A program made the position numbers and the translations under genes. The notes beneath the pieces are model-generated. The model had not been told where the DNA came from. It saw only the letters and a program-made list of their open reading frames with translations, and made no database searches. From assembly GCA_947495075.1 (NCBI GenBank), contig CANLXH010000001.1, positions 620,001-684,000 of the forward strand: DNA of 64,000 nucleotides, given 5' to 3'. Below, piece after piece: positions 4,583-52,837 of the stretch (position 1 is the first letter of the stretch; each line of letters starts with the position of its first letter). Source of the stretch: an uncultured Croceitalea sp. (GTDB lineage Bacteria; Bacteroidota; Bacteroidia; Flavobacteriales; Flavobacteriaceae).

Positions 4583-4583
4583 C

Positions 4584-7231: not shown

Positions 7232-7237
7232 ATTGGA

Positions 7238-7876: not shown

Positions 7877-7880
7877 TAGC

Positions 7881-21027: not shown

Positions 21028-21049
21028 ATTTATGGCTTTATCTGACATG

Positions 21050-25519: not shown

Positions 25520-25523
25520 AGTG

Positions 25524-36000: not shown

Positions 36001-37211
36001 TAATATGTAAAGGTGTTGCTAGTTTCATCATAAAAATTTAAGCCACCGCCTTCTGTACCAACCCATAAGTTTTTATTGTTGTCCTGCACAATAGAACTTA
36101 CTACCTTGTAATTTAAGTCGTTGTTATCTGCTCCTACACCAAAACTTGTAAAAGCGTTGGAACCTTTATCAAGGTAATTTATACCCCCCGCCCATGTGCC
36201 AATCCAAATATCCCCCCGTGAGTCTGCAACAATATCATAAACCGAGTTTTGACTAAGGCTATTGGATATAGTAACGTCGTGCTGATAATTGTGTAGGTTC
36301 TTGGTTTTTGAATTGAGTAAAAACAAGCCTTGATAAGTACCAATCCATAGATTTTGGTCTTCATCTTCGTAAATGGTTCTTACATTGCCATGTATTGCTT
36401 TATTGCCATTTGGCAATGCGTAGTCTACAAAAGCATTGGTTTTGACATCAAAGAGAGCAAGCCCTCCGTCATAACCCAACCAAAGGTTACCTACAGTATC
36501 TTCAAATAGTACAACATTATTGTTTTTAGCTCTTAGCGGGCTTTGTTCGTTTGGGTAGTTATAATGGGAAAAAATGTCTGTGTCCGAGTTGTACTTATCC
36601 ACATGGGTTTCCGTGCAAACCCATAGGTTGCCATCGCGAGATTTTATTAGAGAAAGTAATTTGTTAGAACTTGGGCTAGATGGGGAGTTAGTTTTATGTT
36701 TATACCTTATTACTTCGTTGGTAGCGGTATTCAGATTCCACAACCCTCTATTGGTAGCTATCCATAGACGCGTGTTATCAATATGAATATCCCATATCTC
36801 TCCATAAAGATAATCTTTGTTGTCGAGGCCCACCTGTACTCTTTCAAAATTATCTTCGTAAGGATTGTATTTGTTCAATCCGTTTTTGGTACCTATCCAG
36901 ATATTGCCCTTAGCATCAATGGTTAAAGAAGTAATCCAACTATCACTTAAGCTATGTTCATTGGTAGAATCGTAGTAATAATTCTTAAAACTATGACCAT
37001 CAAATTTATTAAGCCCGTATCTGGTGCCAAACCAAAGATACCCTTCTGCGTCTTGTACAATGGCTACTACCGATCTTTGAGAAAGACCATCTGTTGTAGA
37101 ATAGTTTTTAAAATTGAGGTTGTCTGATGTTTCCATCAGGTTGTTTTGCGCACTGGACTTTAGGAAAGAACAGCATAAGATTACCCCTATAAAATATGAA
37201 TAGAATTTCAT
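33063..37211 (-). CDS. Hybrid two-component system regulator (HTCS)
   Basis: A one-protein sensor and regulator of 1382 residues from the ATG at 37211. An ATG five codons upstream (37226) is also possible but would precede the signal peptide MKFYSYFIGVILCCSFLKSSA. Numbering below is from 37226. Residues of about 25-700 are two-bladed Reg_prop propeller repeats (DAEGYLWFGTRYGLNKFDG and many W-I/V-G-T-x-x-G-L copies). A Y_Y_Y domain (about 720-790) and a transmembrane helix (about 795-815) follow. The HisKA H-box FTNISHDFRTPL has H856, then the HATPase (DNGRGI, GTGVGLALAKDIV). The receiver domain LLLVEDN ... ISDVMMPEMDG has D1180. The C-terminal AraC-type HTH contains EVGFNDIKYFRTCFKKVFG. It senses a periplasmic oligosaccharide and activates the PUL. 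It lies between susD and the GH88 operon. Confidence 0.96.
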   Translation of the reverse strand: MKFYSYFIGVILCCSFLKSSAQNNLMETSDNLNFKNYSTTDGLSQRSVVAIVQDAEGYLWFGTRYGLNKFDGHSFKNYYYDSTNEHSLSDSWITSLTIDAKGNIWIGTKNGLNKYNPYEDNFERVQVGLDNKDYLYGEIWDIHIDNTRLWIATNRGLWNLNTATNEVIRYKHKTNSPSSPSSNKLLSLIKSRDGNLWVCTETHVDKYNSDTDIFSHYNYPNEQSPLRAKNNNVVLFEDTVGNLWLGYDGGLALFDVKTNAFVDYALPNGNKAIHGNVRTIYEDEDQNLWIGTYQGLFLLNSKTKNLHNYQHDVTISNSLSQNSVYDIVADSRGDIWIGTWAGGINYLDKGSNAFTSFGVGADNNDLNYKVVSSIVQDNNKNLWVGTEGGGLNFYDETSNTFTYYTQDPENDNSLVDNNVKAVIKDHLGNLWVGTHNKGLDYVSLGKGVPTFTHIGNAENPSGLSSNRITSLLEDNNNNIWIGTNNGGLNLYDTKKKTFLHIPDHKDALGSFIYSISKTSDNSILVGGINGLAKIDIATNKIKKIPFKPEEGTTYSIQKVISTYEDPQGNIWVGTEGNGLFFYDNKKKESKRYGVQEGLPDEVIYTIVPDSEHNLWLSTNKGLSKMNLTSHTFKNYNLSDGIQGNEFNYGAFLKKNDGRIIFGGVDGFTIFDPQAIKEDSFMPPLVIQSVNIRNKGLKNFGKGTSKIRLEHDQNDITFDYVALGYSQPNKNLYAYKLDGFDSDWNYVGTNRTATYTNLFDGDYTFKVKATNSDGVWNETSTSVIISIAPPLWQTWWAYLIYLLLISMLFIFVRKYSILRIREKAELEQERLAREREEEVNRLKLQLFTNISHDFRTPLTLIIGPLKRMINEKSGGHAIQERLQGMYRNASILLQLINQLLDFRKSESGKIKLSAKKLDMVPFLQNIKLSFEELAKEREIDYRLTTESDSIDVWFDKIEMKKVVLNVLSNAFKFTSKGGNIILKASTIESENEGGGFFKLVIEDNGRGIRKEDIEFIFDRYFQLGQRHELRSGTGVGLALAKDIVTLHNGEISVDSSLEKGTRFTIVLPLGHAHFGPQEISPATEDDTDETMLLNSYDPTQINIGWINKESAGEEIDNYSHPLNKNLDTLLLVEDNLEVRGFIKELFKNKYNLLEAPNGIHGINIAQNNPIDLIISDVMMPEMDGIEFCKRIKADIKTSHIQVILLTARTSTKIQKIGYNTGADAYITKPFDSDLLILQVANLLKSRQKLTEKFRKEFILEPKRMVLESPDEIFLNKAIEIIEEYVSESNFNASTLVEKMHMSQSVLYRKLKTLTGQSISEFIRTIKLKKAAQLLLNTDLNIANIAYEVGFNDIKYFRTCFKKVFGCTATQYRKEKVSEVDEVE

Positions 37212-37281
37212 AATTAATTCTCGCAATTGCTTAAAGATACTTAATATGTTTTTAGTTTAAATGATATAAAAGTGGTCTTAA

Positions 37282-37348: not shown

Positions 37349-38863
37349 TTAACGAATTCTAAACCCTTGTGGATTTTGCTCCAGTTGACTAAGATTGATA
37401 GCACTAAATGGAATTGGTGCAATAAACTGAGCCTCACTTGGTTGTCTTGTTAATGGAATAACCTCATCTGATAATCTTCTAGCGGTGACTTCTGCCACTC
37501 GTTGTGTTCTTACTAAATCAAACCATCTTTTATATTCTCCAGCCAATTCCCAACCCTTTTCATCCACAACTTCATTTGGTGTGGCAGAAGTAACGTCGAC
37601 AGTAGGGTCTGGCACAAGGTAAGGAAGACCCGCTGCTCTACGTTTAACTTGGTTAAATGCTTCAATGGAACTTGCGGTTTGGCCAATTCTGGCTTGAGCT
37701 TCTGCGTAGATTAATAAGATTTCTGCATACCGGTACATTTCTATGGGACGCAATCCTCTTGGTCTACTGTTAATAGTTAAATCTTCAGCAAGAGTGAACT
37801 TTCTGTAATAAGGCTTTTGATTTTCTGTATCCTCAAAAGGTATTGTTGGGGGGTCTCTATCTACAATAACACCACCTCTCACCCTACGGTTTGGGATATC
37901 TTCTAAAAAAGTAAAATCTTTTCGAGGTCCTTCTGGAAAATCAAAAAAGAATTGCAATTCTGGAAAAGCATCATTAAATCCTCTAGATTCAACACCGCTA
38001 AAAGCTGTTGGAAAGGCGCTAAGAATACTTGCATCTGCAGGAAACCTTAATGAGAAGATACTCTCGCGGCTAACAGCTCCCTCCAAGGTCCAAAGCTCCT
38101 CGATAGGAACCAATTCATGGAACCCCGCATCTATGATATCACGAGACTTTTGTGCAGCTGCTTCATACTTTGTCTCATCTTGTACTGGCCATCCAGCCCA
38201 GGTAAGATAAAGATCTGAAAAGACTGCTTTTGCAAAGGATACCGAAATTCGTCCCTCACTTTCTGAACCTGCATCTGGAAGGTTTTGTTCTGCAATAAGC
38301 AAATCATTTTCAATGAATTCATAGTTCTCTACAACGGTGGCTCGTTGTTCGTCTCCTGTAGGCGTAACGCCATCTACTATTAGTGGAACATTGCCCCAGG
38401 TCTTCACCAAATGCAAGTAGCAATAAGCTCTAAATGCACGAGCCTCAGCATCTCCCAGTGCTATTTCTTCTTCGGTGGCCGTTGCTGTTTTTAAACCATC
38501 TATTAAGGTATTACAGAAATAAATGGTCTGCCAATAGGTATCCCAAGCTTCTGGTAACGCAATAATATCAGAATTTTCTCCGCTTCCATAATCAAAACCA
38601 TCAAATACGCGGAATGCTACCTTGTTACGCCTAGGCGAAGTAGTGAGGTCATCACCTCCAAAAGTAGCTGTTCTTAAAACATGAGGTTGTCTGTGAATGT
38701 CCAACATGTTTCTATAGATTGGGGCAACACTTGCCACAATATCCCCTTCACTACTTAGTTCGTCCAAAGTTAATAGACTTCTGGTGTCTTCTTCTAAATC
38801 TGAGCACGAGATTGCTAAAAAGAGCAGTAAAACGGCTGTTATTCCTTTGTGAATACTTTTCAT
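37349..38863 (-). CDS. susD: SusD/RagB family outer-membrane glycan-binding lipoprotein
   Basis: The ATG at 38863 gives 504 residues with lipobox LFLAIS|C20. The longer frame to 38887 would overlap susC and precede the signal. It shows SusD-family features: TYWQTIYFCNTLIDGL, ALGDAEARAFRAYCYLHLVKTWGNVPLIVDGVTP (TPR-like helices), the RPIEMYRYAEILLIYAEAQAR block and EYKRWFDLVRTQR near the end. It forms the lid of the SusC pore and binds the oligosaccharide outside the cell. It directly follows susC. This is the only SusCD pair seen for the whole locus. Confidence 0.96.
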   Translation of the reverse strand: MKSIHKGITAVLLLFLAISCSDLEEDTRSLLTLDELSSEGDIVASVAPIYRNMLDIHRQPHVLRTATFGGDDLTTSPRRNKVAFRVFDGFDYGSGENSDIIALPEAWDTYWQTIYFCNTLIDGLKTATATEEEIALGDAEARAFRAYCYLHLVKTWGNVPLIVDGVTPTGDEQRATVVENYEFIENDLLIAEQNLPDAGSESEGRISVSFAKAVFSDLYLTWAGWPVQDETKYEAAAQKSRDIIDAGFHELVPIEELWTLEGAVSRESIFSLRFPADASILSAFPTAFSGVESRGFNDAFPELQFFFDFPEGPRKDFTFLEDIPNRRVRGGVIVDRDPPTIPFEDTENQKPYYRKFTLAEDLTINSRPRGLRPIEMYRYAEILLIYAEAQARIGQTASSIEAFNQVKRRAAGLPYLVPDPTVDVTSATPNEVVDEKGWELAGEYKRWFDLVRTQRVAEVTARRLSDEVIPLTRQPSEAQFIAPIPFSAINLSQLEQNPQGFRIR

Positions 38864-38873
38864 AGTCTTGTTT

Positions 38874-41800
38874 TTAAAATGATACATTAAGTCCTAAAGT
38901 GATGGTCCTATTTAAAGGCACAGAATTGATATCCAATCCAAGGTCAACGTCTTCGTTGTTTACTGATGCCGTAGTTTCTGGGTCAAAACCAGAATAGTCT
39001 GTTATAATAAAAAGGTTCTGAGCACTAGCGTATAATCTAGCATTGTTAATGCCTAAAGCATCGGTTACTTTTTGATTAAAATTATAACTAAATACTATGT
39101 TTTTCATACTTACAAAAGATCCATCTTCTATGAATTGACTGGATAACGTTTGCGCTCCATCGACTCTTGCAGGGACATTGCTTGGATTGGTAGTTGACCA
39201 ACGATTTCTAAAGGCTCCCAAAGTAGGATTCGTCTGCCTTGTAAAAACACCTAAAAGCCTGGCATTTTGCAAATTGTAGATATCGTTACCTTGTGACCCA
39301 GTTAACAAGAAATTTAAGTTTAAATTTTTATAGCTGATATCCCAATTCCAACCCCAAGTGAAATCTGGATTAGCATCTCCAACCACAGTGATGTCATCTG
39401 TTGTTATTACGCCATCTGGAACACCATCCGGACCACTGATATCTCGGAACCTTGCATCTCCAGGGATTCTTCCAAAAGCTGCTGCTTCATCTTCTTCACC
39501 CAATTGCCAAACACCATCAAAAATAAATCCACGCAACGAGCTAATCGGGCGACCAACTTCAATTCTAGTAGCATTTAAAGGTGTGCCAGAAAAACCGCTG
39601 ACATTTTGCCCAATTTCTATAAACTCTAATCCATCATTCAAAGCAAGGACTTCATTTCTATTTCTTGAAATGGTCAAAGTTGAGTTGATATTCCAATCAT
39701 CATTTCTTAAGATACGAGTGCCAAGATTAATATCAATCCCTTCATTTAAAATCTCTCCAGCATTTACAAATTGTCGCGTTGGTCCAACAAAATCTGGAAG
39801 TTGGGTATCCAGTAATAAATCTGTTGTATTTTTTTTGTAATAATCAAACGAGAAGGTGACTGCTGAATTCCAGAGACCCAAATCTAAACCTGCATTGATT
39901 TGCTCTGTAGTCTCCCAAGTTAAGTCTGGATTGGCCAAACGGTTGGAAGGTGCAACACCAACGGCTAAGTTTCCTTCAAAAGGATAATTAATGTCTTCAT
40001 CCAATCGAGCTCTTTCTCTCGTTCCAAAAACATTGATACTCTGATTACCTACCTGACCATAACTTAATCTAAGTTTTAAGTTGTTAATGGATTTACTGTC
40101 CTTTAAAAACTCTTCTTGATTTATTTTCCATGCAAAAGAAGCGGATGGAAAATACCCTACGCGATCATTTTGAAATATGCTCGTACCATCGGCCCGTATT
40201 GAAGCTGTAAATAAATATCTATCCAACAAAGAAAGATTTGCTCTTCCCAAGAAAGATTCTAATTCTCTTCTACTTTCATTATTTTGAGCTATTTGCACTT
40301 GGGCAGCGGAGAGGTCTCTAAAAGTAACTAAATCTGTAAAGAAATTGCTAGCATCGATATCAGCCCTGTTAAACTGATTGATGACCAACTCATGTACGGC
40401 ATCTATTTTAAGATTACTACGTTCACCTAAATCCACAGTATAGGTTAAACGATTAGTATTAAATAAGTTTGTCCTATATATATTGTCTACATTGGCTCTG
40501 CCAATACCTCCAGCCCTAAGAGAACTGTAAGAATTGTTATGGATGTCACTGCGTACGACACCTGCAGAGATATTAGCCACTAGGTTTTTTACAATATCAT
40601 AATTTAAATTTGCTGTGATGTTGTACCTGTCCGTGGTAGACTCGCGCAAGTTAAAATTTACGGGTACCAATGGATTAAGCGCAGTGGTTCCCAAATCGTT
40701 TTCAGAAAACAGGTTGAGTTCACCTTCCTCATTAAAAGCAAATGTTGTGGGAGAGAAAGCAAGGGCATCGGAAAGATTTCCAATAATACCGTCCCGTTCT
40801 TCTCTACCAATATTTAAATTCATTCCTACTTTTAATCTTTTGGATAATTTGGCATTGAGATTTGTCCTAACATTAAGTCTACGAAATTTTTGAGCCTGTA
40901 TGGTACTGGTCTCTTCGTAAAAGTTGCTGGAGATATAATAATCTATATCTTCACTACCGCCACTGGCCGAAACCTGGACATTATTCGCAAATCCTGTTCT
41001 GAACAGTCTATCTTGCCAATCTTCACCTCCATTAGCCCTTAACTCGTCTAACTGTTCTTGAGTGAACAACGTACTATCCTCTATAGAAACGCCTTCTTGC
41101 TCAATAGCAGCTTCAGCAAATTCAATACCATTTAATAAGTCTAGTCTTGTTGTAGGCTTTGAAATGCTTGTGAAGACATCTACATTAATCGTGGCTTTTC
41201 CTGGACGACCTCTTTTGGTTGTAATCAAAACAACACCGTTAGCCCCTCTATTCCCATAAATAGCGGTTGCAGAAGCATCTTTCAATACTTCAATGGACTG
41301 TATGTCGTTTACGTTTACTGCGGATATATCTAAAAATTGACCATCTACAACAAATAAAGGTTCGTTACCACCAGATATGGAATTTGCCCCTCGGATACGA
41401 ATTTTAAAATCCCCACCTGGAGTCCCACTGTTTTGGGTAACCTGAAGACCAGCTGCCCTTCCTAGAAGCGCTTGGCTTACGTCGTTCAATGGTTGTTTTT
41501 CAAAATCCTTGGCCGATACAGAAGCTACAGATCCTGTAAGATCAGACTTTTTAGCAGTACCGTAACCCACTACGACCACTTCATCCAACCTTGCAGTGTC
41601 TTCTAATAACACTACGTTCATCTGTGATTGACCGCTAACTAGAATTTCCTGGGAAGCATAACCGATATAACTAAATACCAAGGTGTCATCTTCATTTACA
41701 TTGTTTAAAACAAAGTTGCCATCAAAATCTGCTTGTGTTCCGTTAGAGGTTCCTTTTACTACAATTGTGGCACCCGGTAGAGGTCCACTATCATCGGACA

Positions 41801-41915
41801 CATTGCCCGTTATAGTTTTTTGAGCAAAAGAATAACCACACATTACGAACATTGTTATCGCAAATAAGAATGTTTTAAATGAATTTTTCCATCTTTTAAA
41901 TTTTATTCTTTTCAT
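38874..41915 (-). CDS. susC: SusC/RagA family TonB-dependent outer-membrane transporter
   Basis: A 1013-residue receptor. The signal peptide (about 1-31, ending GYSFA|QK) is followed by a carboxypeptidase-regulatory-like domain (ITGNVSDDSGPLPGATIVVKGTSNGTQADFDGNF). Then come a TonB-box-like stretch (LDEVVVVGYGTAKKSDLTGSV), the plug with FVVDGQFLDISAVNVNDIQSIEVLKDASATAIYGNRGANGVV, and a beta-barrel ending in ITLGLNVSF. It imports oligosaccharides with SusD. A CCCC-type motif lies 76 bases upstream. Confidence 0.97.
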   Translation of the reverse strand: MKRIKFKRWKNSFKTFLFAITMFVMCGYSFAQKTITGNVSDDSGPLPGATIVVKGTSNGTQADFDGNFVLNNVNEDDTLVFSYIGYASQEILVSGQSQMNVVLLEDTARLDEVVVVGYGTAKKSDLTGSVASVSAKDFEKQPLNDVSQALLGRAAGLQVTQNSGTPGGDFKIRIRGANSISGGNEPLFVVDGQFLDISAVNVNDIQSIEVLKDASATAIYGNRGANGVVLITTKRGRPGKATINVDVFTSISKPTTRLDLLNGIEFAEAAIEQEGVSIEDSTLFTQEQLDELRANGGEDWQDRLFRTGFANNVQVSASGGSEDIDYYISSNFYEETSTIQAQKFRRLNVRTNLNAKLSKRLKVGMNLNIGREERDGIIGNLSDALAFSPTTFAFNEEGELNLFSENDLGTTALNPLVPVNFNLRESTTDRYNITANLNYDIVKNLVANISAGVVRSDIHNNSYSSLRAGGIGRANVDNIYRTNLFNTNRLTYTVDLGERSNLKIDAVHELVINQFNRADIDASNFFTDLVTFRDLSAAQVQIAQNNESRRELESFLGRANLSLLDRYLFTASIRADGTSIFQNDRVGYFPSASFAWKINQEEFLKDSKSINNLKLRLSYGQVGNQSINVFGTRERARLDEDINYPFEGNLAVGVAPSNRLANPDLTWETTEQINAGLDLGLWNSAVTFSFDYYKKNTTDLLLDTQLPDFVGPTRQFVNAGEILNEGIDINLGTRILRNDDWNINSTLTISRNRNEVLALNDGLEFIEIGQNVSGFSGTPLNATRIEVGRPISSLRGFIFDGVWQLGEEDEAAAFGRIPGDARFRDISGPDGVPDGVITTDDITVVGDANPDFTWGWNWDISYKNLNLNFLLTGSQGNDIYNLQNARLLGVFTRQTNPTLGAFRNRWSTTNPSNVPARVDGAQTLSSQFIEDGSFVSMKNIVFSYNFNQKVTDALGINNARLYASAQNLFIITDYSGFDPETTASVNNEDVDLGLDINSVPLNRTITLGLNVSF

Positions 41916-42221: not shown

Positions 42222-45200
42222 CTAACGTTTATATATTTTATATGCTATTGGGCGTTTATTATTCGTGGGGTATAAACGGATAAAATAAAACCCAGATGGG
42301 AATCCAGACAAATTGAAATCTAAAACATTTGTAAAGCGTTTTGGTTTAAATACTTGAAGCACTTCACCTTGCATATCTACCAATTCTACGGTTTGTGGAA
42401 GTGGTTGTTTGGGTTTAAATACAAGTTTTACCGGCCCAAAAGTCGGGTTGGGATATATACGTGGAGCAATGAATTTAGGACCGTCTTTATCCTCCTCCTC
42501 ATCTGCTTCTTGCGAGACAACATAGCGTAATACAACTTCATTAGGTAATCCATGATTAAGAGTAAAACTTAGGGTAGTACTACTATCTGTTGCAGAAATA
42601 ACTGAAACATTCTGATTAGGGCCCCTTAATTTCCACTTGCCTTTTAAACTAACCGTCACTGTTTTTTCGATAGCAGGGGTGTACTGTCTAGATTCAAAAC
42701 CAAGATCAGGATTGACAATTGATAACCGTATTCTTCTGATATCCTTTAGCTTGTTTTCTTTTTTCTTTTTTTGCCATCCCCAAGAAAAATCAGAATTTTT
42801 ACTATTTTTTCTTTTCGTTACTTTGTACATGAGCATAGATGGCGCACTTACAGACTGCAGTAGCCCCTCATGTTCCAAAGAATCTATGGCACTGAATAGG
42901 GCATAACCCCAAATCTCATTCTCGCCATACTCTAGAATATGGGCAATAGAGTCTTGCTGATGCACCGTATATGGCTTTTTACCTCGCTTTATTTCCTTAT
43001 CCAATTTTTTCATGTCCCAAAAATTTGTTTTGGGCAGTGTGATATATTCGTAAGACGCATTATCTGGAGTGCTTCCATGATTTAAATAACCAACATGGTA
43101 CTTTCGAATTGGATTGGTGGAAAAATCTGGATTTATTTGATTATGGTTGGGCGTTTGTTGATCTTCGTTTCTTGTGGTAAGTATGCCACTTTCTGGGAGT
43201 ACGTAATAGCCAGTACCATAATTACTAATTACCCAATGATTATCATTGTTTTCAAAGGTATCGTTGGTAGCGTTAGAACCGTTTACAATAACACCTCTGT
43301 CTTTGTTATCCAATCTTTGGTACAGTGTAGTAATTGTAGAATTTGAACTATCATTGTTGTTGATATTGGACCCCAAACTGATAATCATCCCATTAATCAT
43401 AAACATGGACTTTTTAAAAGTAAAGGTGCCATTATGTGTATTTGACCCAATAACATCTCCAAAGCCCTGACTTTCCAGTTCTTGGAAATCCATGGCAAAC
43501 ATACCAAATCGGGTATGGGTGTTGCGTAACATAGCACTACCTTTATTGCTAAGACCAAGCGCTCCTGCAAATCGTTTTACTTGGCGTTCGTCTATTCTAC
43601 TCCGTTCCGCTTGTAGTAATTCCCAAGGAAGCAAAATACTGGTTGCGCCAGGATTAAAGTTCCAATCCCATGTATCTAAATCCCAACCTAAACCATTTTC
43701 TTCATCACCGGGATATAGAATTTCAAGTGTACCGTAACTTTGATACCTTCCATACCTATTCTCTCCTGGAAAAATTTCCGTTCCCCAAGTATAGTTTGTA
43801 AATCCTTTACTGACCGCCAACCAATTCTTTTTTCGATATGCTGCAAGATTGGCATGGTTAAACTGATAAAAACCGCGCATCTCTTTGTTTGGGGTCGCTT
43901 CTACAAATCCAAAATCTGGATTAGGCTCTTCCGCTCTTTGATTGTATAACCCACCAAGAACTGGGTCCGGTGTAGCCAGACCAAGGATATTCCCGCCAGC
44001 TATAGCTAAACCGCGTATTTGTTCTAACCTTGGAGTCAACGATTGTTTACGGTTGTTGATTACCCTACCCGACATGGAAATAGGTTTGTTACCATCGGAA
44101 GTAGAGGTTATGAACTGTGCATAAATGGCTTCCCTGAATCGTAAGTAGTTTTCTTTTTCAATTTGAAAGGAAGTACCATCCAGGTTGAATACAATCTCCC
44201 CTGCTGTTCCATAGGTGTACATATAATGATCATAAGCAGTCCAGTGGTGGTACCCGGAACCATCCCGTTTAAGACCATTGGCCGTACCATAAGAGTAGTT
44301 GAAAAACCGGTCCATAAAACGTTTAAATGCGCGCATATGGCGATAGCGTTCTTCCGGCGTGTCCTGCCAGGTGCTATAAGCCATGAGCACATTACCTAAA
44401 TTATGTACCAAATCTGTATTAATAGCATCATTTACTTCTTGAAAGGCTTCGTCATACTCTGGTTCCCAATAATGATTTCCATCGTCTGTAAAGTGAGCGA
44501 TAAGGTTGAAAGAGAACAGGTCCTGCACATCTTCGTCCAAGAAGTCTTGTAACAATACCGTAGGCCTAGCGAAGTCCTCGTATTGGTACATAGGACCATT
44601 TAGTCTTAAAATGGCCTGGCAGAACTGTAAGGATATCCATCGAACCGTATTGTTGGCTTTTTGTGCCACTAGTGTATCGTTAGGATTGAACTTTAAATGA
44701 CTTGCCAAGGTTCTTAAGAACCCTCCTTGAGAGAATGATGTTACGGTATTACCAGAAATGTCATCTCCGTTGACCTGGATATTAAGTGCGTCATATTCCG
44801 CCAAAGCACTTTGCAACTCTTCCTCGGAAGGAGGTTCCACACCCAAGTAGATATCTGAAAAACTATCATAAGCTTGCTGTATTTCCGCTTCTATAGTCGC
44901 ATTGGAAGGGATTAGAGGTAAATCGGGCACAAGGTCATCGTAACAGAGTGTGCCAGGCCCTATAAGTGGCAGTTCCATGAGTACAAATTCATCATCCACG
45001 CTTAAATTATCTATATTGAAATCCCGTACGGTATCAAAAACACTGGTTCTTAAATAACGCACAGCGATACGATCTCCTACATCTTCGGTAGTAAACGTAT
45101 AAGCCATCGTGGCTAATTTGGGTGTAATGTTGTTAGAGGGCAAACCTATAAAAAACGTAGACAAAACGTTATCGTCATCCACATTATAGAGTTCTACATT

Positions 45201-46463
45201 GATACGTACAAAAGTATTTTTAAGATTGTACACATAAGTTTCAAGATTTATAGTTCCTCCCTCGTTTGGAGTTCCTTCAAAAAGATATTGAATACCTTGA
45301 AATTCCTCAGTAGATTGTCCGTCAATTACAAAAGCACCATCACCAACTCCATCACCGTTGTCGCCATCGTTGTTTACTACTACGGCACTGGTATCTCCAA
45401 GAACAATCCATTCTCCTGCAGTACTTAAACCAGAACTACCATTTCCATTTTCTTCTTCAAAAGGTATAAAGCTACCATTAAAGGATGCGTTATCTATTTT
45501 AAAGTCTCTAAAGCTGGCGAAGTCGCTTACCCTGAGATACCGTAGTGTTAAGCGATCTCCTTGATCGTCGGTTGTTGCAGTATAGTCCAGGACCACGGTC
45601 TTTGGTTCGGTATTGTTTGCAGGAAAACCAACAGTTCCTGATGTGGCCAGTACGGTATTGTCATCGATGTTATAGAGTTCTACGGCTACCCGTACGAAGG
45701 CTGGGTTGGTATTGTAGATTACGGTCTGAATGGATATAGGTTCCCCATTGGTCATGGTACCTCCAAAGATATACTGAGCTCCTTGTAGTTCTGAGGTATC
45801 CTGTCCGTCCACGAACCATGCGCCATCGGCAATACCGTCACCATTGTCTTCGTCATCATTGACAATCGTCAATAAGGTATTACCCAAAGGAGACCAATCT
45901 GTTCCTAGTTCTAAAATGGATGTTGGCTCCGTAGTATCCTCTTGAAAAGGGATAAAAGCACCATTAAAGGATGCATTATCTATTTTAAAGTCTCTAAAGC
46001 TGGCGAAATCGCTGACCCTAAGATATCTTAAGGAGAGACGATCATCTTGATCGTCGTCTGTTGCAGTATAGTCCAATACCACGGTTTTTGGTTCTGCGTT
46101 GTTAGCTGGAAAACCGACGGTTCCTGATGTGGCTAGTACGGTACCATCATCGATGTTATAGAGTTCTACGGCCACACGAACGAAGGCTGGGTTGGTATTG
46201 TAGATTACGGTCTGAACGGATATAGTTCCCCCTTCAATCATAGTACCATCAAATAGGTACTGTGTACCCTGTGGTTCAGCTGAGTCCTGCCCGTCTACAA
46301 ACCAGGCTCCATCAGCTATGCCGTCACCATTGCCTCCATCATCGTTGACAATGGTCAGTTCTGTTGCACCAATGCTTTCCCAAGCGGGTGAATTTATGGA
46401 GACCTGTGCCTCCAGTGTTGTATATAGCGTCAAGAAAAATAAAAGAAGTAGTTTTTTATGCAT
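42222..46463 (-). CDS. Chondroitinase ABC-like polysaccharide lyase (PL8) with T9SS domain
   Basis: A 1413-residue secreted protein. Residues 1-19 are a signal peptide. Three homologous N-terminal modules of about 145-150 residues follow (about 27-170, 189-332, 346-495), each with DGIADGAWFVDGQ-type and VRVAVELYNIDD-type strands. The alpha/alpha-toroid (about 505-830) and super-sandwich (about 850-1300) resemble Proteus vulgaris chondroitin ABC lyase I. EIFPGENRYGRYQSYG, KKSMFMINGMIISLGSNINN and TPDNASYEYITLP all have close counterparts there. H740, Y747, R800 and E896 align with that enzyme's catalytic H501, Y508, R560 and E653, with nearly equal spacing. The last 80 residues are a T9SS sorting domain (IYPNPTFGPVKLVF ... 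FIRLYP). It likely cleaves a uronic-acid polymer outside the cell by beta-elimination. True substrate unknown. Confidence 0.88.
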   Translation of the reverse strand: MHKKLLLLFFLTLYTTLEAQVSINSPAWESIGATELTIVNDDGGNGDGIADGAWFVDGQDSAEPQGTQYLFDGTMIEGGTISVQTVIYNTNPAFVRVAVELYNIDDGTVLATSGTVGFPANNAEPKTVVLDYTATDDDQDDRLSLRYLRVSDFASFRDFKIDNASFNGAFIPFQEDTTEPTSILELGTDWSPLGNTLLTIVNDDEDNGDGIADGAWFVDGQDTSELQGAQYIFGGTMTNGEPISIQTVIYNTNPAFVRVAVELYNIDDNTVLATSGTVGFPANNTEPKTVVLDYTATTDDQGDRLTLRYLRVSDFASFRDFKIDNASFNGSFIPFEEENGNGSSGLSTAGEWIVLGDTSAVVVNNDGDNGDGVGDGAFVIDGQSTEEFQGIQYLFEGTPNEGGTINLETYVYNLKNTFVRINVELYNVDDDNVLSTFFIGLPSNNITPKLATMAYTFTTEDVGDRIAVRYLRTSVFDTVRDFNIDNLSVDDEFVLMELPLIGPGTLCYDDLVPDLPLIPSNATIEAEIQQAYDSFSDIYLGVEPPSEEELQSALAEYDALNIQVNGDDISGNTVTSFSQGGFLRTLASHLKFNPNDTLVAQKANNTVRWISLQFCQAILRLNGPMYQYEDFARPTVLLQDFLDEDVQDLFSFNLIAHFTDDGNHYWEPEYDEAFQEVNDAINTDLVHNLGNVLMAYSTWQDTPEERYRHMRAFKRFMDRFFNYSYGTANGLKRDGSGYHHWTAYDHYMYTYGTAGEIVFNLDGTSFQIEKENYLRFREAIYAQFITSTSDGNKPISMSGRVINNRKQSLTPRLEQIRGLAIAGGNILGLATPDPVLGGLYNQRAEEPNPDFGFVEATPNKEMRGFYQFNHANLAAYRKKNWLAVSKGFTNYTWGTEIFPGENRYGRYQSYGTLEILYPGDEENGLGWDLDTWDWNFNPGATSILLPWELLQAERSRIDERQVKRFAGALGLSNKGSAMLRNTHTRFGMFAMDFQELESQGFGDVIGSNTHNGTFTFKKSMFMINGMIISLGSNINNNDSSNSTITTLYQRLDNKDRGVIVNGSNATNDTFENNDNHWVISNYGTGYYVLPESGILTTRNEDQQTPNHNQINPDFSTNPIRKYHVGYLNHGSTPDNASYEYITLPKTNFWDMKKLDKEIKRGKKPYTVHQQDSIAHILEYGENEIWGYALFSAIDSLEHEGLLQSVSAPSMLMYKVTKRKNSKNSDFSWGWQKKKKENKLKDIRRIRLSIVNPDLGFESRQYTPAIEKTVTVSLKGKWKLRGPNQNVSVISATDSSTTLSFTLNHGLPNEVVLRYVVSQEADEEEDKDGPKFIAPRIYPNPTFGPVKLVFKPKQPLPQTVELVDMQGEVLQVFKPKRFTNVLDFNLSGFPSGFYFIRLYPTNNKRPIAYKIYKR
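45474..46385 (-). repeat. 486-bp direct repeat inside the PL8 gene
   Basis: The first two N-terminal modules of the PL8 protein are nearly identical in DNA as well as protein. For example TATTTTAAAGTCTCTAAAGC occurs about 45493 and again about 45979, giving a period of 486 bases (162 codons). The third module (about 44980-45430) is clearly related in protein but diverged in DNA. This indicates a recent in-frame duplication of one binding module. Confidence 0.85.
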
Positions 46464-46763
46464 AGTTTTTACAATTTGTTTGGATAATTAAATTTTTAAA
46501 AATGCCTTTTCTCCAAAATTATGCCTTTGCTACGTTGATTATGAGGTGCAAATTAATGAAATGCAGGGGTGTATTTCATCACACCAACTTTTTTAGTCAT
46601 TTGTTGGCGTTCACTTTATGTATTGAAGAACAGTGAGTTTGTAGTACAAATGGGATGTCTTGAACGATACGACCCCCATATCTGGAATGCGAGCCCCTTA
46701 GGTAACATTTTAGATACCGTTAATTTTAAATTTTAATAAATAATAGTAACAAATTAATTGACG
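46464..46763. promoter_or_regulatory. Divergent PL8/kduI promoter region with three CCCC motifs
   Basis: In this 300-base gap, the minus strand shows ATACACCCCTGCAT (46561-46574), followed by TTAATTTGCACCT, about 100 bases upstream of the PL8 start. On the plus strand, ATACGACCCCCATAT (46667-46681) and GCGAGCCCCTTAGG (46689-46702) lie 60-95 bases upstream of kduI. The second is followed 18 bases later by TTAATTTTA, the same arrangement as upstream of the 1132 gene. Both divergent genes are PUL genes, which supports co-regulation. Binding by the HTCS is inferred. Confidence 0.45.
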
Positions 46764-47597
46764 ATGAAATACGAGAGTAGATATGCTTCTAATCCAGAGA
46801 CAGTTAAGAAATACGATACTGCCCAATTAAGAAAAGAGTTTTTGATAGACAACTTAATGAACAAAGATGAGATAAACTTAACGTATAGCCACTACGACAG
46901 ATATATTGCTGGGTCTGCTGTTCCTCTCACTTCTTTGAAATTGGAAACTATAGACCCTTTAAAATCTGAACATTTTTTAGATAGACGGGAGATGGGAATT
47001 ATTAATGTAGGAGGTTCTGGAAGCATTGTCATTGATGGAGAACTACACGCCATGGGTCATAAAGATGCCCTTTATATAGGAATGGGGGCAAAAGAAGTCA
47101 TTTTTAAGAGCGATTCCAAAGACAAACCCGCCATGTACTACATAAATTCTGCGCCTGCCCATAAATCTTACCCCACTAAAAAAGTAGGACTCCACGAGGC
47201 CAATAAACTAGAACTAGGAAGTTTAGAAACTGCAAACGACCGTACCGTCAGTCAAATGATTATAGGTGGTATTGTTACCACCTGTCAGCTTCAAATGGGT
47301 ATGACAGAACTTAAGAGTGGAAGTGTATGGAATACAATGCCCGCCCATGTTCATGACCGTCGTATGGAGGTCTATTTTTATTTAGACGTACCTGAAGATC
47401 AAGCTGTCTGCCATTTTATGGGGCAACCACAAGAGACTAGGCATATTTGGATGCATAACCACCAAGCTGTCATTTCCCCGCCATGGTCCATCCATTGCGG
47501 TTCGGGAACGTCAAATTACACTTTTATATGGGGCATGGCAGGAGAGAATATGGAGTATACAGATATGGACGTCGCAGACATTAAAGATTTAAAATAA
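46764..47597 (+). CDS. kduI: 5-dehydro-4-deoxy-D-glucuronate isomerase
   Basis: The ATG at 46764 gives 277 residues (MKYESRYAS...), the normal KduI length. A TTG two codons upstream is in frame but unnecessary. The cupin zinc ligands are H195, H197 and E202 in PAHVHDRRMEVYFYL and H244 in WSIHCGSG, one residue from the E. coli positions. ANDRTVSQMIIGG and HHxWMHNHQAVISPPWSIH-type segments are characteristic. It converts 5-keto-4-deoxyuronate, formed from the GH88 product, to 2,5-diketo-3-deoxygluconate. It is followed 24 bases later by kduD. Confidence 0.96.
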   Translation: MKYESRYASNPETVKKYDTAQLRKEFLIDNLMNKDEINLTYSHYDRYIAGSAVPLTSLKLETIDPLKSEHFLDRREMGIINVGGSGSIVIDGELHAMGHKDALYIGMGAKEVIFKSDSKDKPAMYYINSAPAHKSYPTKKVGLHEANKLELGSLETANDRTVSQMIIGGIVTTCQLQMGMTELKSGSVWNTMPAHVHDRRMEVYFYLDVPEDQAVCHFMGQPQETRHIWMHNHQAVISPPWSIHCGSGTSNYTFIWGMAGENMEYTDMDVADIKDLK

Positions 47598-47621: not shown

Positions 47622-48416
47622 ATGTCTAGTGAACTATTTGATTTAACTGGAAAAACAGCTCTTATTACTGGTGGGGTACACGGTTTGGGAATGGCCATGG
47701 CTAAAGGCATTGGACATGCTGGTGCAAAAATTGTAGTCAATGAGCATTCTTCCCAAGAAAAAGTAGATAATGCTGTTGCAGAATATCGTGCAGAAGGTAT
47801 AGAAGCATTTGGATATCTTTTTGATGTGACAGATGAGAGTGCCGTAATAAATGCAATAAAAAGAATCGAAGAAGAAGTAGGTCCTATTGATATCTTGGTA
47901 AACAATGCGGGTATCATTAAAAGAACTGCTATGATTGATATGGAGGTAGTCGATTTTGAAGCTGTTATAAAGGTAGATTTGATAGGACCCTTTATTGTAT
48001 CAAAAAATGTTGCTAAGGGAATGATAGCGAGGGGAGGAGGTAAAATAATCAATATCTGCTCCATGATGAGTGAGTTAGGTAGAAACTCCGTAAGTGCCTA
48101 TGCAGCAGCAAAAGGTGGTTTAAAGATGCTTACCAAGAACATGGCTACGGAATGGGCCAGGTTCAATATACAAACCAATGGTATAGGTCCCGGATACTTT
48201 GCTACTAGCCAAACTGCTCCAATACGGGTAGATGGACATCCATTTAATGATTTTATAGTTGGCAGGACTCCGGCTGGCCGTTGGGGAAATCCCGAAGATC
48301 TTAAAGGTGCAGCTATTTTTTTGAGCTCAAAAGCAAGTGACTTTGTAAATGGGCATGTACTCTATGTAGATGGAGGGATATTGGCTACTATTGGAAAACC
48401 TTCTAATGAAGCCTAG
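47622..48416 (+). CDS. kduD: 2-dehydro-3-deoxy-D-gluconate 5-dehydrogenase
   Basis: A 264-residue short-chain dehydrogenase. The NAD loop is TGGVHGLGMAMAKG, NNAG appears in ILVNNAGIIKR, and the catalytic Ser/Tyr/Lys block lies in ICSMMSELGRNSVSAYAAAKGGLKML. The C-terminal GHVLYVDGGILATIGKP is typical of KduD. It reduces 2,5-diketo-3-deoxygluconate to KDG, linking KduI to KdgK. The kduI-kduD pair and the GH88/PL8 context make this assignment firm. Confidence 0.94.
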   Translation: MSSELFDLTGKTALITGGVHGLGMAMAKGIGHAGAKIVVNEHSSQEKVDNAVAEYRAEGIEAFGYLFDVTDESAVINAIKRIEEEVGPIDILVNNAGIIKRTAMIDMEVVDFEAVIKVDLIGPFIVSKNVAKGMIARGGGKIINICSMMSELGRNSVSAYAAAKGGLKMLTKNMATEWARFNIQTNGIGPGYFATSQTAPIRVDGHPFNDFIVGRTPAGRWGNPEDLKGAAIFLSSKASDFVNGHVLYVDGGILATIGKPSNEA

Positions 48417-48420
48417 AAAG

Positions 48421-49602
48421 ATGAAAACACAATTTCCTTCCATTGTTCTCTTATGTGCCTTCTGCCTTACAATCTCATGTAAAAAGGAAGATAAATCGAT
48501 AAAACTAGTTTTAAAAAATACGCTGGATATTGATCGGGAATATGAGACCATTACCTTGGACAAGACTTTTCTTAAGGTAGACAGTTTAGAAAATCTGGCT
48601 ATTATTAATGTCGATACCAAAAAAGTAATGGTTTCACAAGTAGTGGATATCAATGGTGATGGAAAGTTCGACGCACTACTGTTTCAACCGAATATCAGCT
48701 CCAAATCCAGTAAGATTTTTGAAATCAAAAGAATAACACAAAACATTATAAATGATTCCCTCCAATCGTGCTATTCTAGGTTTGTTCCAGAACGTACGGA
48801 TGATTACGCTTGGGAGAATAATCGTGTGGCTTTTAGAACTTTTGGACCCACTGCCCAAAAAATGATTGAAGACGATGTTCCTGGAGGTACGCTCTCTAGC
48901 GGCATTGATGCTTGGCTAAAAAAAGTAAGCTACCCTATAATTGATAAGTGGTATCATAAAGAAACCCAAACAACTGGTACGTACCATGAAGACAATGGAG
49001 AAGGACTGGATAATTTTCATGTTGGTAAAAGCCGTGGGGTAGGTGGAACTGCAGTAAAAAAAGACAGTACCTTTTATACCTCCAAAAATTTTATAGATTG
49101 GAAAACCCTGTCTACAGGACCGCTTCGAACAAGTTTTGAACTTACTTATGAAGATTGGGATGCGAATGGTGTACGGATAAGTGAAAAAAAACGAATTTCC
49201 CTAGATTTTGGAAGCAATCTAAGCAAATTTGAAGTGACGACTACAGGAAGCGAAACTTTGTCGGTTGGTCTTACATTGCATGAAAATGATGGTCAGATAT
49301 TCATGGATGAAAACGTTGGGTATATGGGGTATTGGGAGCCTCATGGTACTTCTGAACTGGGTACGGGAATTATTGCAACCAAAGGTACTTTAAACACTTT
49401 TGAAACCTATATTTCTGATGTTAAGGATTTAAGCAATGCCTATGCACACCTTAACGTGGTGGACAAAAAGGTTACCTACTATGCTGGTTTTGGTTGGAAA
49501 GAAAGTGGACAGTTTAAATCCAAGGCTGAATGGGAAGCATACCTTAATGATTTTGCCCTTAAAATAAACAACCCTATGTCCATGCAACTGTTGGATAAAT
49601 AA
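48421..49602 (+). CDS. DUF4861 family lipoprotein
   Basis: The ATG at 48421 (four bases after the kduD stop) gives 393 residues with lipobox LTIS|C20. An ATG at 48406 overlapping kduD is also in frame. KLVLKNTLDIDREYETITL, DINGDGKFDALLFQPNI, FVPERTDDYAWENNRVAFRTFGP and DAWLKKVSYPIIDKWYH match DUF4861, a family repeatedly encoded in uronate-related PULs of Bacteroidota. Its biochemical role is not something I can state from sequence. By fold and position it is probably a periplasmic carbohydrate-active or binding protein acting beside the GH88/KduI steps. Confidence 0.8.
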   Translation: MKTQFPSIVLLCAFCLTISCKKEDKSIKLVLKNTLDIDREYETITLDKTFLKVDSLENLAIINVDTKKVMVSQVVDINGDGKFDALLFQPNISSKSSKIFEIKRITQNIINDSLQSCYSRFVPERTDDYAWENNRVAFRTFGPTAQKMIEDDVPGGTLSSGIDAWLKKVSYPIIDKWYHKETQTTGTYHEDNGEGLDNFHVGKSRGVGGTAVKKDSTFYTSKNFIDWKTLSTGPLRTSFELTYEDWDANGVRISEKKRISLDFGSNLSKFEVTTTGSETLSVGLTLHENDGQIFMDENVGYMGYWEPHGTSELGTGIIATKGTLNTFETYISDVKDLSNAYAHLNVVDKKVTYYAGFGWKESGQFKSKAEWEAYLNDFALKINNPMSMQLLDK

Positions 49603-49605
49603 TAT

Positions 49606-50721
49606 TTATTTCTTTTTTATATAATCGTCCAATCCAATGACCGTACGGAACCCCAAATGTTCCATTCCTGAATCCAAACTAGTACCCATCCTTGCACTTG
49701 GTCGATAACTGGCACAGTAGGAGTCACTGCAAAGAAACGATCCTCCTTTTAAGACTTTTTCTCTTGCCAATGGATTTCTAGGATTATAGGGAGTGGTAGC
49801 ACCTAAAGGGTTTTTGACCATGCCTATATTGTTTAGTTTGGAATAGTAATCCGTATTGTACCAATCACTGGTCCACTCCCAAACGTTACCAGCCATATCG
49901 TACAACCCAAAATCGTTAGGAGGAAAACTCATCACTGGGGCTGTTCGCTCGTGGCCATCTATCTGGGTATTGCTTACAGGAAACTCACCCTCCCAAGTGT
50001 TTGCCTTGAGGCTCAGAGAGTCGCGTTTGGTACCCCATGTAAAAGGTGCTCCGTCATAGCCACCTCTCGCCGCATATTCCCATTCGGCCTCAGTTGGAAG
50101 TCTTTTTCCAGCCCATTTACAATAGGCCAGTGCATCCTCGTAAGCGATGTGTACCACTGGATGGTCCTCCTTTCCTTCAATAGTAGTTTCCAATCCTTGT
50201 GGATTTTTCCAATTTGCACTAATTTCCCATTTCCACCATTGAGAATAGTCGTATAAGTTTGGGAGAACGGTTTGGGTTTTCCTAAAAACCAAAGAGCCTG
50301 GGCGGAGGATACTATCATGAGGTCTGGGAGTTCCAATGGGAAGCTGTTGCTTTATTTCTTCCCAGTCCACTATGCGCTCAGCCACAGTAATATATCCGGT
50401 TTCCTTGATGAACTTGGCAAACTGTTCATTGGTCACTTCGTGAATATCCATGAAAAAACCATCGACAGCGGCCCTGTGAACTGGTCTTTCGTGAGCCATG
50501 GCCATGGTGTCTGATGCAATAGCACCTCGATGGAATTCCCCGCCAGAAATCCAGACCATACCCTTGGGAACCTCGGTATTTTTAGGAAGTTCAACAATGA
50601 TGTTCATATCATAATCTTGGTTCCCAATGGTTTGAACATTCCCCCCCTTAGACTTGTCTTCGCAGCCCCAGAATATGAAAATTAAAATCGCTACTATGTG
50701 GAAATGTTTTCTTTTGTACAT
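49606..50721 (-). CDS. Formylglycine-generating enzyme family lipoprotein (sulfatase maturation)
   Basis: A 371-residue SUMF1/FGE-type protein with lipobox FIFWG|C20, so exported. It has MVWISGGEFHRGA at the start, RLPTEAEWEYAARGG, NVWEWTSDWY, and VLKGGSFLCSDSYCASYRPSAR at the active site. C331 and C336 keep the five-residue spacing of the copper-binding catalytic cysteines of human FGE. This suggests a working aerobic FGE rather than one of the many cysteine-less relatives. It can activate the two Cys-type sulfatases of this locus, here apparently after export. It is the last gene of the galK-galT-lacI run. Confidence 0.88.
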   Translation of the reverse strand: MYKRKHFHIVAILIFIFWGCEDKSKGGNVQTIGNQDYDMNIIVELPKNTEVPKGMVWISGGEFHRGAIASDTMAMAHERPVHRAAVDGFFMDIHEVTNEQFAKFIKETGYITVAERIVDWEEIKQQLPIGTPRPHDSILRPGSLVFRKTQTVLPNLYDYSQWWKWEISANWKNPQGLETTIEGKEDHPVVHIAYEDALAYCKWAGKRLPTEAEWEYAARGGYDGAPFTWGTKRDSLSLKANTWEGEFPVSNTQIDGHERTAPVMSFPPNDFGLYDMAGNVWEWTSDWYNTDYYSKLNNIGMVKNPLGATTPYNPRNPLAREKVLKGGSFLCSDSYCASYRPSARMGTSLDSGMEHLGFRTVIGLDDYIKKK

Positions 50722-51790: not shown

Positions 51791-52837
51791 TCAGTTTTCG
51801 TTTAGACTATAATGGATATTGGAAAGCCCTTTTAATGTTAGTGCGGCCTGTTCGGGTGTGATATCCCGTTGTGGATTGGCGAACATTTCATAACCGACCA
51901 TAAATTTTTTGACTGTTGCCGAACGAAGAAGAGGAGGATAAAAAGACATATGAAAATGCCATTCTTCATGTTCTGCTCCATCAGTAGGTGCTTGGTGTAT
52001 TCCTGAAGAATAGGGGAATGAGGTTTCAAACAAATTATCATATTTTATGGTGACCTCTTTGATAGCCTTGGCAAAATTTTTCTTTTCGCTCATTGAAAGT
52101 TGCCCTATGTTCTGGTAATGCTTTTTTGGGGCAATCATAACTTCATTGGGCCATACAGCCCAAAAGGGAATTAAGGCTAAGAAATCTTCATTTTGGTAGA
52201 TAACACGTTCATTTAACTTAATTTCCTGCACCAAATAATCTTGTAAAAGGCTAACCCCGTTTTTCTGCCAATAATCAAGTTGTTGTTTTGATTTTTTCTC
52301 CACTTCCAATGGAATAGAACTTTGTGCCCATACCTGGCCGTGTGGATGGAGATTGCTACAGCCCATCAATGTCCCTTTGTTCTCAAAAATTTGAATGTGA
52401 TTGATGGCCTTCATAGCTCCTAAGGATTTATACTCCTCTTGCCAAATTGAAATAACTGCCTCAATACCTTGAATAGTCATTAATGGAAGTGTCAAGGAAT
52501 GGTCTGGTGAAAAGCAGATTACTTTACAGATACCTTGTTCTCCTTTGGCCCTAAGCAGTTCTTTTTGGAACTCCTCAATTGGTGTATCTGTTAAAAGAGC
52601 TGAAAAATCATTAGTAAAACTGAATACCGTGGTGTATTTTGGGTTTGTGGCTCCACTTGCCCTAGTATTTCCTGGACAGAGGTAGCATTTCTCATCATAC
52701 GAAGGGTGTTTTTCACTTACCAACTTTTCTTGTCTTCCTTGCCATGGACGTTTGGTTCGATGGGGAGATACCAATACCCATTCACCAGTCAAAATATTGT
52801 ACCGCCTGTGCGGATGTTCGTTCAAATCAAGTTCCAT
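51791..52837 (-). CDS. galT: Galactose-1-phosphate uridylyltransferase
   Basis: A 348-residue Leloir-pathway enzyme. HPHRRYNILTGEWVLVSPHRTKRPWQGR, CYLCPGN (zinc-binding cysteines) and NKGTLMGCSNLHPHGQVWAQ with the catalytic H-P-H nucleophile motif are diagnostic. EEWHFHMSFYPPLLRS is the second metal and substrate region. It is cytoplasmic and starts five bases after galK ends. It exchanges galactose 1-phosphate with UDP-glucose. Confidence 0.97.
   Translation of the reverse strand: MELDLNEHPHRRYNILTGEWVLVSPHRTKRPWQGRQEKLVSEKHPSYDEKCYLCPGNTRASGATNPKYTTVFSFTNDFSALLTDTPIEEFQKELLRAKGEQGICKVICFSPDHSLTLPLMTIQGIEAVISIWQEEYKSLGAMKAINHIQIFENKGTLMGCSNLHPHGQVWAQSSIPLEVEKKSKQQLDYWQKNGVSLLQDYLVQEIKLNERVIYQNEDFLALIPFWAVWPNEVMIAPKKHYQNIGQLSMSEKKNFAKAIKEVTIKYDNLFETSFPYSSGIHQAPTDGAEHEEWHFHMSFYPPLLRSATVKKFMVGYEMFANPQRDITPEQAALTLKGLSNIHYSLNEN

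Follow-up and report, generated by a model that had tools for sequence, protein, structure and literature searches.

The window analysed here, the 64,000 nucleotides at positions 620001-684000 of contig C1 in an uncultured Croceitalea sp. genome of 3.73 Mb (15 contigs, stated completeness 99.99%), carries a polysaccharide utilization locus (PUL) whose family PL8 lyase, judged by its sequence, belongs to a distinct PL8 clade that we call clade C. We consider the most likely substrate, with rather better than even confidence, to be a sulfated heteropolysaccharide of glucuronate (GlcA), galactose (Gal) and xylose (Xyl), possibly of algal origin, with a chondroitin-like uronate bond and no amino sugar. 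This reading rests on a combination of traits: clade C and a type II S1_27 sulfatase, taken together with the type of the S1_15 sulfatase, a missing kinase, a missing clade B lyase, and linked galactose and xylose genes. Hereafter, G numbers denote the compared genomes (G000 being the window's own) and L numbers loci. The lyase and its parts are as follows.

42222..46463, minus strand: PL8 lyase of clade C, 1413 aa, ATG start, with a type IX secretion system (T9SS) tail
44949..46406, minus strand: three N-terminal beta-sandwich repeats resembling carbohydrate-binding modules (CBM-like), residues 20-505, from alignment, AlphaFold2 (AF2) and Foldseek
43944..44579, minus strand: Pfam Lyase_catalyt match (profile positions 150-349 of 359 only), with H740, Y747 and R800 inside
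43026..43865, minus strand: Pfam Lyase_8 super-sandwich domain, with E896 inside
42258..42458, minus strand: T9SS C-terminal sorting domain (profile match), residues 1336-1402

Membership of PL8 is indicated by the Pfam Lyase_8 match at residues 867-1146 (E 2.9e-27, 96.2 bits for a curated cut-off of 27) and by the fold, while the Lyase_catalyt match at residues 629-840 (E 1.1e-17) is partial. The PDB sequence relatives are 2q1f (1.1e-43), 7eip (1e-37) and 1hn0 (5.6e-37), followed by chondroitinase AC at 1e-7. The catalytic region (residues 505-1330) is predicted by AF2 (pLDDT 79.1) as an alpha-helical catalytic domain plus a beta-sandwich fold, and its closest structures in Foldseek are the ABC lyases of Bacteroides thetaiotaomicron (2q1f) and Proteus (1hn0). 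With the help of the molecule names, we take 2q1f to be BT3324, 6s21 to be BT3349 and 6s20 to be BT3333. The first-pass annotation had equated H740, Y747, R800 and E896 with the catalytic residues of chondroitin ABC lyase I. Its translation is correct, and the four residues are identical in 28/28 aligned PL8 domains (the window's, 12 more of clade C, six of clade D, seven of clade B, 1hn0 and 2q1f, picked from the 58 of the tree described below). The near-identical spacing also holds, with 7/53/96 in the window lyase and 7/52/93 in Proteus vulgaris ABC I, whose tetrad numbering we presume to be 501/508/560/653. The enzyme is thus predicted to be chondroitinase ABC-like in its chemistry. Besides this His/Tyr/Arg/Glu tetrad, two other features of an ABC-type lyase, its domain architecture and its tree placement, are absent. 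Indeed, Pfam finds no Lyase_N and no full-length Lyase_catalyt in the protein, and the CBM-like repeats occupy the place where both characterised ABC lyases in the tree have Lyase_N. These three repeats of ∼150 aa can be aligned to each other and to repeats in related proteins. The second is a predicted beta-sandwich (AF2 pLDDT 87.5) whose PDB neighbours in Foldseek are CBM22, CBM4 and CBM11 modules (TMq 0.45-0.64) but also a GH51 enzyme, a phage tailspike and cyclases, so its likeness to CBMs holds at the level of the fold only.

The phylogeny that had been proposed as a check places the lyase outside the groups of the two characterised ABC lyases included. In this tree of 58 rows of our own choice, with some long branches, 2q1f and P. 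vulgaris ABC I (PvABC I) were entered as segments aligned to the window PL8. The window protein falls in clade C with proteins of Polaribacter, Lutibacter, Flavivirga, Flavobacterium, Pedobacter, Chitinophagaceae and Saprospiraceae. Clades C and D (25 rows) join at support 100/99, separately from 2q1f and from the clade of PvABC I, which groups with clade B (∼1020 aa) at 99/94; 2q1f branches before both groups. No further characterised ABC lyase, such as BT3350 or P. vulgaris ABC II, is in the tree, so the absence of a characterised relative concerns the two that were placed. Members of clade D measure ∼1200-1280 aa, or ∼1050 aa in G153 and G344, the latter protein being assigned to clade D by BLAST, outside the tree. 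Pfam scans of three clade C proteins (window, L036 and L038) found no Lyase_N and a Lyase_catalyt match over roughly its second half only; in one protein of clade B and two of clade D, they found Lyase_N and a Lyase_catalyt match of greater length. A genome-wide search found the window lyase to be the only PL8 of its genome. Elsewhere in clade C, the 894-aa PL8s of F. columnare and F. covae (L044, L045) are too short for N-terminal repeats, and that of Flavobacterium davisii (L047 9971-12659) is spread over two open reading frames (ORFs), apparently as a broken copy.

The first-pass annotation overlooked that the two sulfatases of the locus, Sulf1 and Sulf2, and its GH88 belong to the families of chondroitin PULs. 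The S1 subfamilies of the sulfatases were assigned here by nearest PDB chain and not by SulfAtlas. The nearest PDB chains of Sulf2 are S1_15 enzymes, with identities of 58% to BT3109, 50% to BT1624 and 49% to BT3333. These are named in an excerpt of the review PMC10154612 as acting on 6-sulfated galactose (6S-Gal), on 6S-Gal and 6-sulfated N-acetylgalactosamine (6S-GalNAc), and on 6S-GalNAc, respectively; the part of the PMC10154620 table from which the PDB codes were taken lists BT3109 under the subfamily's 6S-Gal/GalNAc heading. The same excerpt of PMC10154612 describes, without a residue number, a Trp through which BT3333 touches the N-acetyl group; BT1624 lacks this Trp, and the S1_15 enzymes of Bacteroides chondroitin sulfate (CS) PULs conserve it. 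In our alignment it fits the W of GDWPTG best, the alternative Trp lost in BT1624 (IGWM) being Y or F in the S1_15 enzymes of clade B PULs. The inferred site is W in BT3333 and in 5/5 clade B PUL enzymes (those above 250 bits to Sulf2, with one at 35% from G105 left out), and E, Q or D in all 15 further S1_15 proteins (13 close orthologues from 11 genomes and two at ∼45%). Sulf2, like BT3109 and BT1624, has E there and so lacks the mark of a GalNAc-preferring S1_15. Of 395 genomes, 99 besides the window's own have a Sulf2 orthologue of at least 60% identity, and only one of 13 places read with flanks (that in G344) has a PL8 matching the window's nearby, which suggests a general sulfatase of the family that is not bound to PL8. 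As to Sulf1, the nearest PDB chain is 6s21 ('Endo-4-O-sulfatase', taken as BT3349) and the third is the Vibrio chondroitin/dermatan sulfate (DS) 4-O-endosulfatase 6j66. Together with five relatives at 59-61%, it forms what we call type II of S1_27. Four Trp present in all eight S1_27 proteins of the other kind (BT3349, the Vibrio enzyme and six type I proteins of clade B PULs) are Y or F in 6/6 type II proteins, and one of them is presumably the stacking Trp that the excerpt of PMC10154612 mentions, unnumbered, for S1_27.

The claim that the locus lacks a GalNAc/GlcNAc kinase, deacetylase and deaminase stands for the locus itself: no amino-sugar gene occurs among the scanned window ORFs (at least 120 aa, not inside or largely across another ORF). 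As an argument, the absence is weak for NagA. No NagA over cut-off was found genome-wide, but only 28/299 family genomes have a match at 1e-30, a Bacteroides ihuae control is also negative at that level, and 11/14 clade B genomes have no strong match (G013, G080 and G105 have one). NagA was therefore uninformative and was dropped as a test of amino-sugar use. A more telling marker lies in G002, where L062 5615-13376 holds a complete-looking GalNAc salvage cluster beside a chondroitinase PUL with clade B and D lyases. It comprises a nucleotidyltransferase, an APH-family NahK-type kinase, an epimerase, a NagB+PIG-L-like fusion, a sugar-phosphate mutase and a NagP-type transporter that scores under its cut-off. 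The names NahK-type and mutase are our own reading of neighbourhood and sequence; NCBIfam names no kinase.

Any match to this kinase at 1e-30 is found in 95 of the 299 family genomes and one of at least 59% identity, our threshold (the next match has 48%), in 29. At that threshold the kinase is present in nine of the ten genomes of the family sample in which a clade B PL8 was placed (the exception being G080) versus 20/289 others (Fisher p 2e-9, uncorrected for genome relatedness); G184, with seven PL8 matches of which one is placed and no NahK match, is counted among the others. Once the named-locus genomes are added, the kinase accompanies clade B in 12/14 genomes, versus one of the six clade C/D-without-B genomes searched whole for PL8 (p 0.007). 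This one is G302, whose second PL8 (829 aa) we kept out of clade B on account of its length and score and not from the tree; G000, G153, G046, G191 and G303 lack the kinase at that level, G046 and G303 having NahK-like matches at 41% and 36% only. Three genomes stand outside this comparison: G306 (a 1030-aa PL8 unplaced; NahK present), G305 (six PL8s, several unplaced; only distant NahK-like matches) and G344 (no NahK; only part of the genome searched for PL8). The NahK-type kinase has no match in G000, G344, G063 or G278, in a search that did not cover ROK-type kinases or a promiscuous GalK.

The remaining genes of the locus confirm the earlier description of a uronate, xylose and galactose degradation locus: the 2-keto-3-deoxygluconate (KDG), xylose and galactose genes all lie within the window, with GalK, GalT and XylA linked to PL8.

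38874..41915, minus strand: SusC-like TonB receptor, 62% to the G344 copy
37349..38887, minus strand: SusD-like protein, 65% to the G344 copy
33063..37226, minus strand: hybrid two-component sensor (HTCS), 55-56% to G344/G063
31295..32554, minus strand: GH88 unsaturated glucuronyl hydrolase, best PDB match 3wiw (338 bits)
29712..31289, minus strand: DUF4955 protein with a pectate-lyase-like N-terminal match
28706..29722, minus strand: aldose 1-epimerase, under the GalM cut-offs
27647..28687, minus strand: PfkB kinase, KDG kinase-like
26965..27636, minus strand: 2-keto-3-deoxy-6-phosphogluconate (KDPG) aldolase
24224..26980, minus strand: TRAP transporter M, Q and P subunits
22634..24202, minus strand: Sulf2, S1_15-like sulfatase, nearest BT3109 (6S-Gal)
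21050..22633, minus strand: Sulf1, S1_27-like sulfatase, subtype II
19288..21105, minus strand: GH43 with an F5/8 type C (CBM32-like) domain
17769..19250, minus strand: FGGY pentulose kinase, XylB-like (290 bits)
16440..17765, minus strand: xylose isomerase XylA (677 bits)
14818..16434, minus strand: SSF sodium:solute symporter
10422..13397, plus strand: DUF5060 protein, 62% to a gene within the related G063 locus
46758..47597, plus strand: KduI
47622..48416, plus strand: short-chain dehydrogenase, taken as KduD from its position beside KduI
48370..49602, plus strand: DUF4861 protein
49606..50721, minus strand: FGE-sulfatase domain protein (formylglycine-generating type)
51791..52837, minus strand: galactose-1-phosphate uridylyltransferase GalT
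52843..54006, minus strand: galactokinase GalK

No paper on DUF4861 or DUF4955 was found in the literature searched. Two further groups of genes stand apart. That at 3557-8960 (Gfo/Idh/MocA oxidoreductase, MFS transporter, four-carbon acid sugar kinase family protein, cyclase and tartrate dehydrogenase) is apparently a separate acid-sugar pathway, and that at 59194-62298 (tryptophan 2,3-dioxygenase, aldehyde dehydrogenase and 3-hydroxyanthranilate dioxygenase) apparently serves tryptophan catabolism, unrelated to the PUL.

A search with GH43 in 390 family genomes returned three other matches of at least 66%, in G278, G063 and G344. The G344 locus runs DUF4861, KduD, KduI, SusCD, HTCS, second SusCD, GH88, DUF4955, S1_27, S1_15, GH43, clade D PL8, TRAP. 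It shares with the window SusCD (62-65%), HTCS (56%), the Kdu genes, TRAP, and GH88, DUF4955, S1_27, S1_15 and GH43 at 56-68%. It differs by its second SusCD pair and by its PL8, which has Lyase_N and is 60-66% identical to clade D members and ∼30% to the window's. Clade C and D lyases thus appear to replace each other. In G063, xylA, xylB, TRAP, DUF5060, GH43, DUF4955, GH88, HTCS and the Kdu genes occur together, and no PL8 or sulfatase matching the window's was found in the 60 kb read (L107, L108, L109). On its short contig, G278 has GH43 and a TRAP subunit and, beyond these, only SusC/SusD-like genes that are distant. Taken together, GH43 belongs with this type of locus, and the xylose genes do so in two genomes (G000 and G063). 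G247 has a GalK-like ORF (168 aa) next after its Sulf2 orthologue.

The alternative that survives best, which we nevertheless consider unlikely, is an ordinary chondroitin/dermatan sulfate lyase in a cell that takes the GlcA and either leaves the GalNAc or uses another kinase. According to an excerpt of PMC6994673, the B. thetaiotaomicron PUL for CS, DS and hyaluronan (HA) comprises PL8, GH88, S1_27, S1_15, SusCD and HTCS. The window locus has this core in full, which argues for a chondroitin-like backbone and, through the two sulfatases and GH88, brings it closer to a chondroitin locus than the first-pass annotation implied when it proposed another substrate; that proposal is partly supported, by the tree position, the missing NahK and the sulfatase type. 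The closest PDB sequences and folds are also those of chondroitinases. Several further observations weigh against a polymer free of amino sugars. Clade C lyases stand beside clade B ones in Polaribacter, Lutibacter, Flavivirga and F. weaverense (L032, L034, L036, L041), and G203, G002 and G233 combine type II S1_27, GH88 and DUF4955 (57-61%) with clade B and D lyases and the NahK-type kinase. These parts thus coexist with probable chondroitin use, and neither clade C nor type II S1_27 excludes chondroitin by itself. The kinase marker has its own exceptions: F. fluvii (G302) has the kinase although its PL8s include one of clade C and, going by length and score, none of clade B, and the kinase is missing from two clade B genomes, G080 and that of F. 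weaverense (G301). The excerpt of PMC10154612 also states that BT1624, without the Trp, takes 6S-GalNAc as well as 6S-Gal, and that BT3333, which has it, prefers 6S-GalNAc but can also accept 6S-Gal; loss of the Trp therefore removes a preference for GalNAc and does not prove galactose. Within the window, the XylB-like kinase scores under its cut-off of 380 bits, and GalK and GalT sit at the far end of the locus; the 80 kb read of G344 showed none of xylA, xylB, galK and galT, and the 60 kb of G063 neither galK nor galT. Finally, the earlier claim of missing amino-sugar genes does not extend to the genome as a whole in one respect: a NagB+PIG-L deaminase/deacetylase fusion of 642 aa, 59% identical to its G002 counterpart, lies ∼85 kb before the window. 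Its proximity to an AnmK anhydromuramate kinase gene suggests that it probably serves cell-wall recycling. The other PF01182 match (L083 10088-10840) is probably a 6-phosphogluconolactonase, given neighbours that we take to be zwf and gnd.

What tips the balance from ordinary chondroitin to the sulfated GlcA/Gal/Xyl polymer is the conjunction of a genome without NahK or a NagA over cut-off, a sole PL8 that is not of clade B, an S1_15 that is nearest to a 6S-Gal enzyme and lacks the inferred GalNAc Trp, and the linkage of galK/galT, xylA and GH43. For the proteoglycan linkage region, suggested earlier for its matching sugars, there was no specific evidence, and the explanation can do without it; sulfated linkage-region galactose is a possible substrate.

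An animal or sea-cucumber type of branched chondroitin (fucosylated or xylosylated), of which the branch sugar would be eaten and the backbone partly used, is in our view very improbable. Clade C relatives in L032, L034 and L036 do have an alpha-L-fucosidase family gene near two PL8s, but no fucosidase family was found among the scanned window ORFs, NahK is absent and the S1_15 is of the galactose type. The PULs of L032, L034, L041 and L036, each with a clade C and a clade B PL8, may themselves target fucosylated chondroitin; the first three also encode a separate CBM-like-repeat protein, and a mandelate-racemase-family enzyme in L036 is presumably a fuconate dehydratase. Least probable of all is a locus originally devoted to an unsulfated GlcA/Xyl polymer, as the G063 locus with xylA, xylB, GH43, DUF5060, GH88, DUF4955, TRAP and Kdu genes, in whose 60 kb no PL8 or sulfatase like the window's was found, might suggest, to which PL8 and sulfatases were added later with galactose incidental, since in G344 GH43 lies directly between S1_15 and PL8, making these one unit there.

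For the favoured sulfated GlcA/Gal/Xyl substrate, degradation could proceed as follows. The lyase, secreted, would bind the polysaccharide via its CBM-like repeats and cut the X-(1->4)-glucuronate bond by beta-elimination through Tyr/His/Arg/Glu, leaving a 4,5-unsaturated GlcA. The fragments would be imported by SusCD, and the S1_27- and S1_15-type sulfatases would strip sulfate from galactose, which would take the position that GalNAc has in chondroitin. GH88 would then take off the unsaturated uronate for KduI/KduD, KDG kinase and KDPG aldolase, while GH43 may free the pentose (xylose) and galactose may pass to GalK/GalT. More tentatively, and at somewhat less than even confidence, we propose a 'galacto-chondroitin' system, in which a PL8 clade and S1_27/S1_15 subtypes were re-tooled from GalNAc to Gal for an undescribed sulfated GlcA-Gal(-Xyl) polysaccharide, free of amino sugar but broken down by the same logic as chondroitin. 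The Porphyridium exopolysaccharide was considered as a substrate and rejected. Its composition fits (Xyl, Gal, Glc, GlcA), but the L-galactose, 1,3-linked uronate and sulfate on Glc/Xyl given in an excerpt of PMC12988356 agree poorly with D-Gal6S and a 1->4 cut.

The combination of PL8, GH88 and S1_27/S1_15 is easily taken for chondroitin degradation. If our reading is right, part of such Flavobacteriaceae loci targets another polymer, and three sequence marks (PL8 clade, S1_15 Trp and NahK) could help to separate the two kinds. Besides, a lyase and sulfatases would become available for an acidic sulfated heteropolysaccharide.

To conclude, the system can be set beside three known ones. With P. 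vulgaris chondroitinase ABC I (1hn0, 7eip), the window lyase shares the tetrad, the super-sandwich domain and the predicted fold (Foldseek E 4.5e-42, TMq 0.78), but it is only 24% identical over 575 aligned positions, belongs to another clade, has no Lyase_N match and a partial Lyase_catalyt, and carries CBM-like repeats and a T9SS tail. With B. thetaiotaomicron, the locus has in common the PL8, GH88, S1_27, S1_15, SusCD and HTCS of the CS/DS/HA PUL, whereas its lyase is 29% identical to 2q1f over 524 positions without grouping with it, the S1_15 is Gal-type, the S1_27 is type II, and GH43, xylA, galK and galT come in addition. Finally, the PL8s that act outside glycosaminoglycans, xanthan lyase and the Paradendryphiella salina enzyme 7r2x (a mannuronate lyase by its PDB title), have the same fold and a substrate without amino sugar, although they match the window structure less well than the ABC lyases do (TMq 0.62-0.66 versus 0.74-0.78). 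The P. salina PL8 is described in an excerpt of its discovery paper as similar to chondroitin AC lyases (PMC6710412). PL8 action on substrates devoid of amino sugar, as we propose here, is thus already known.

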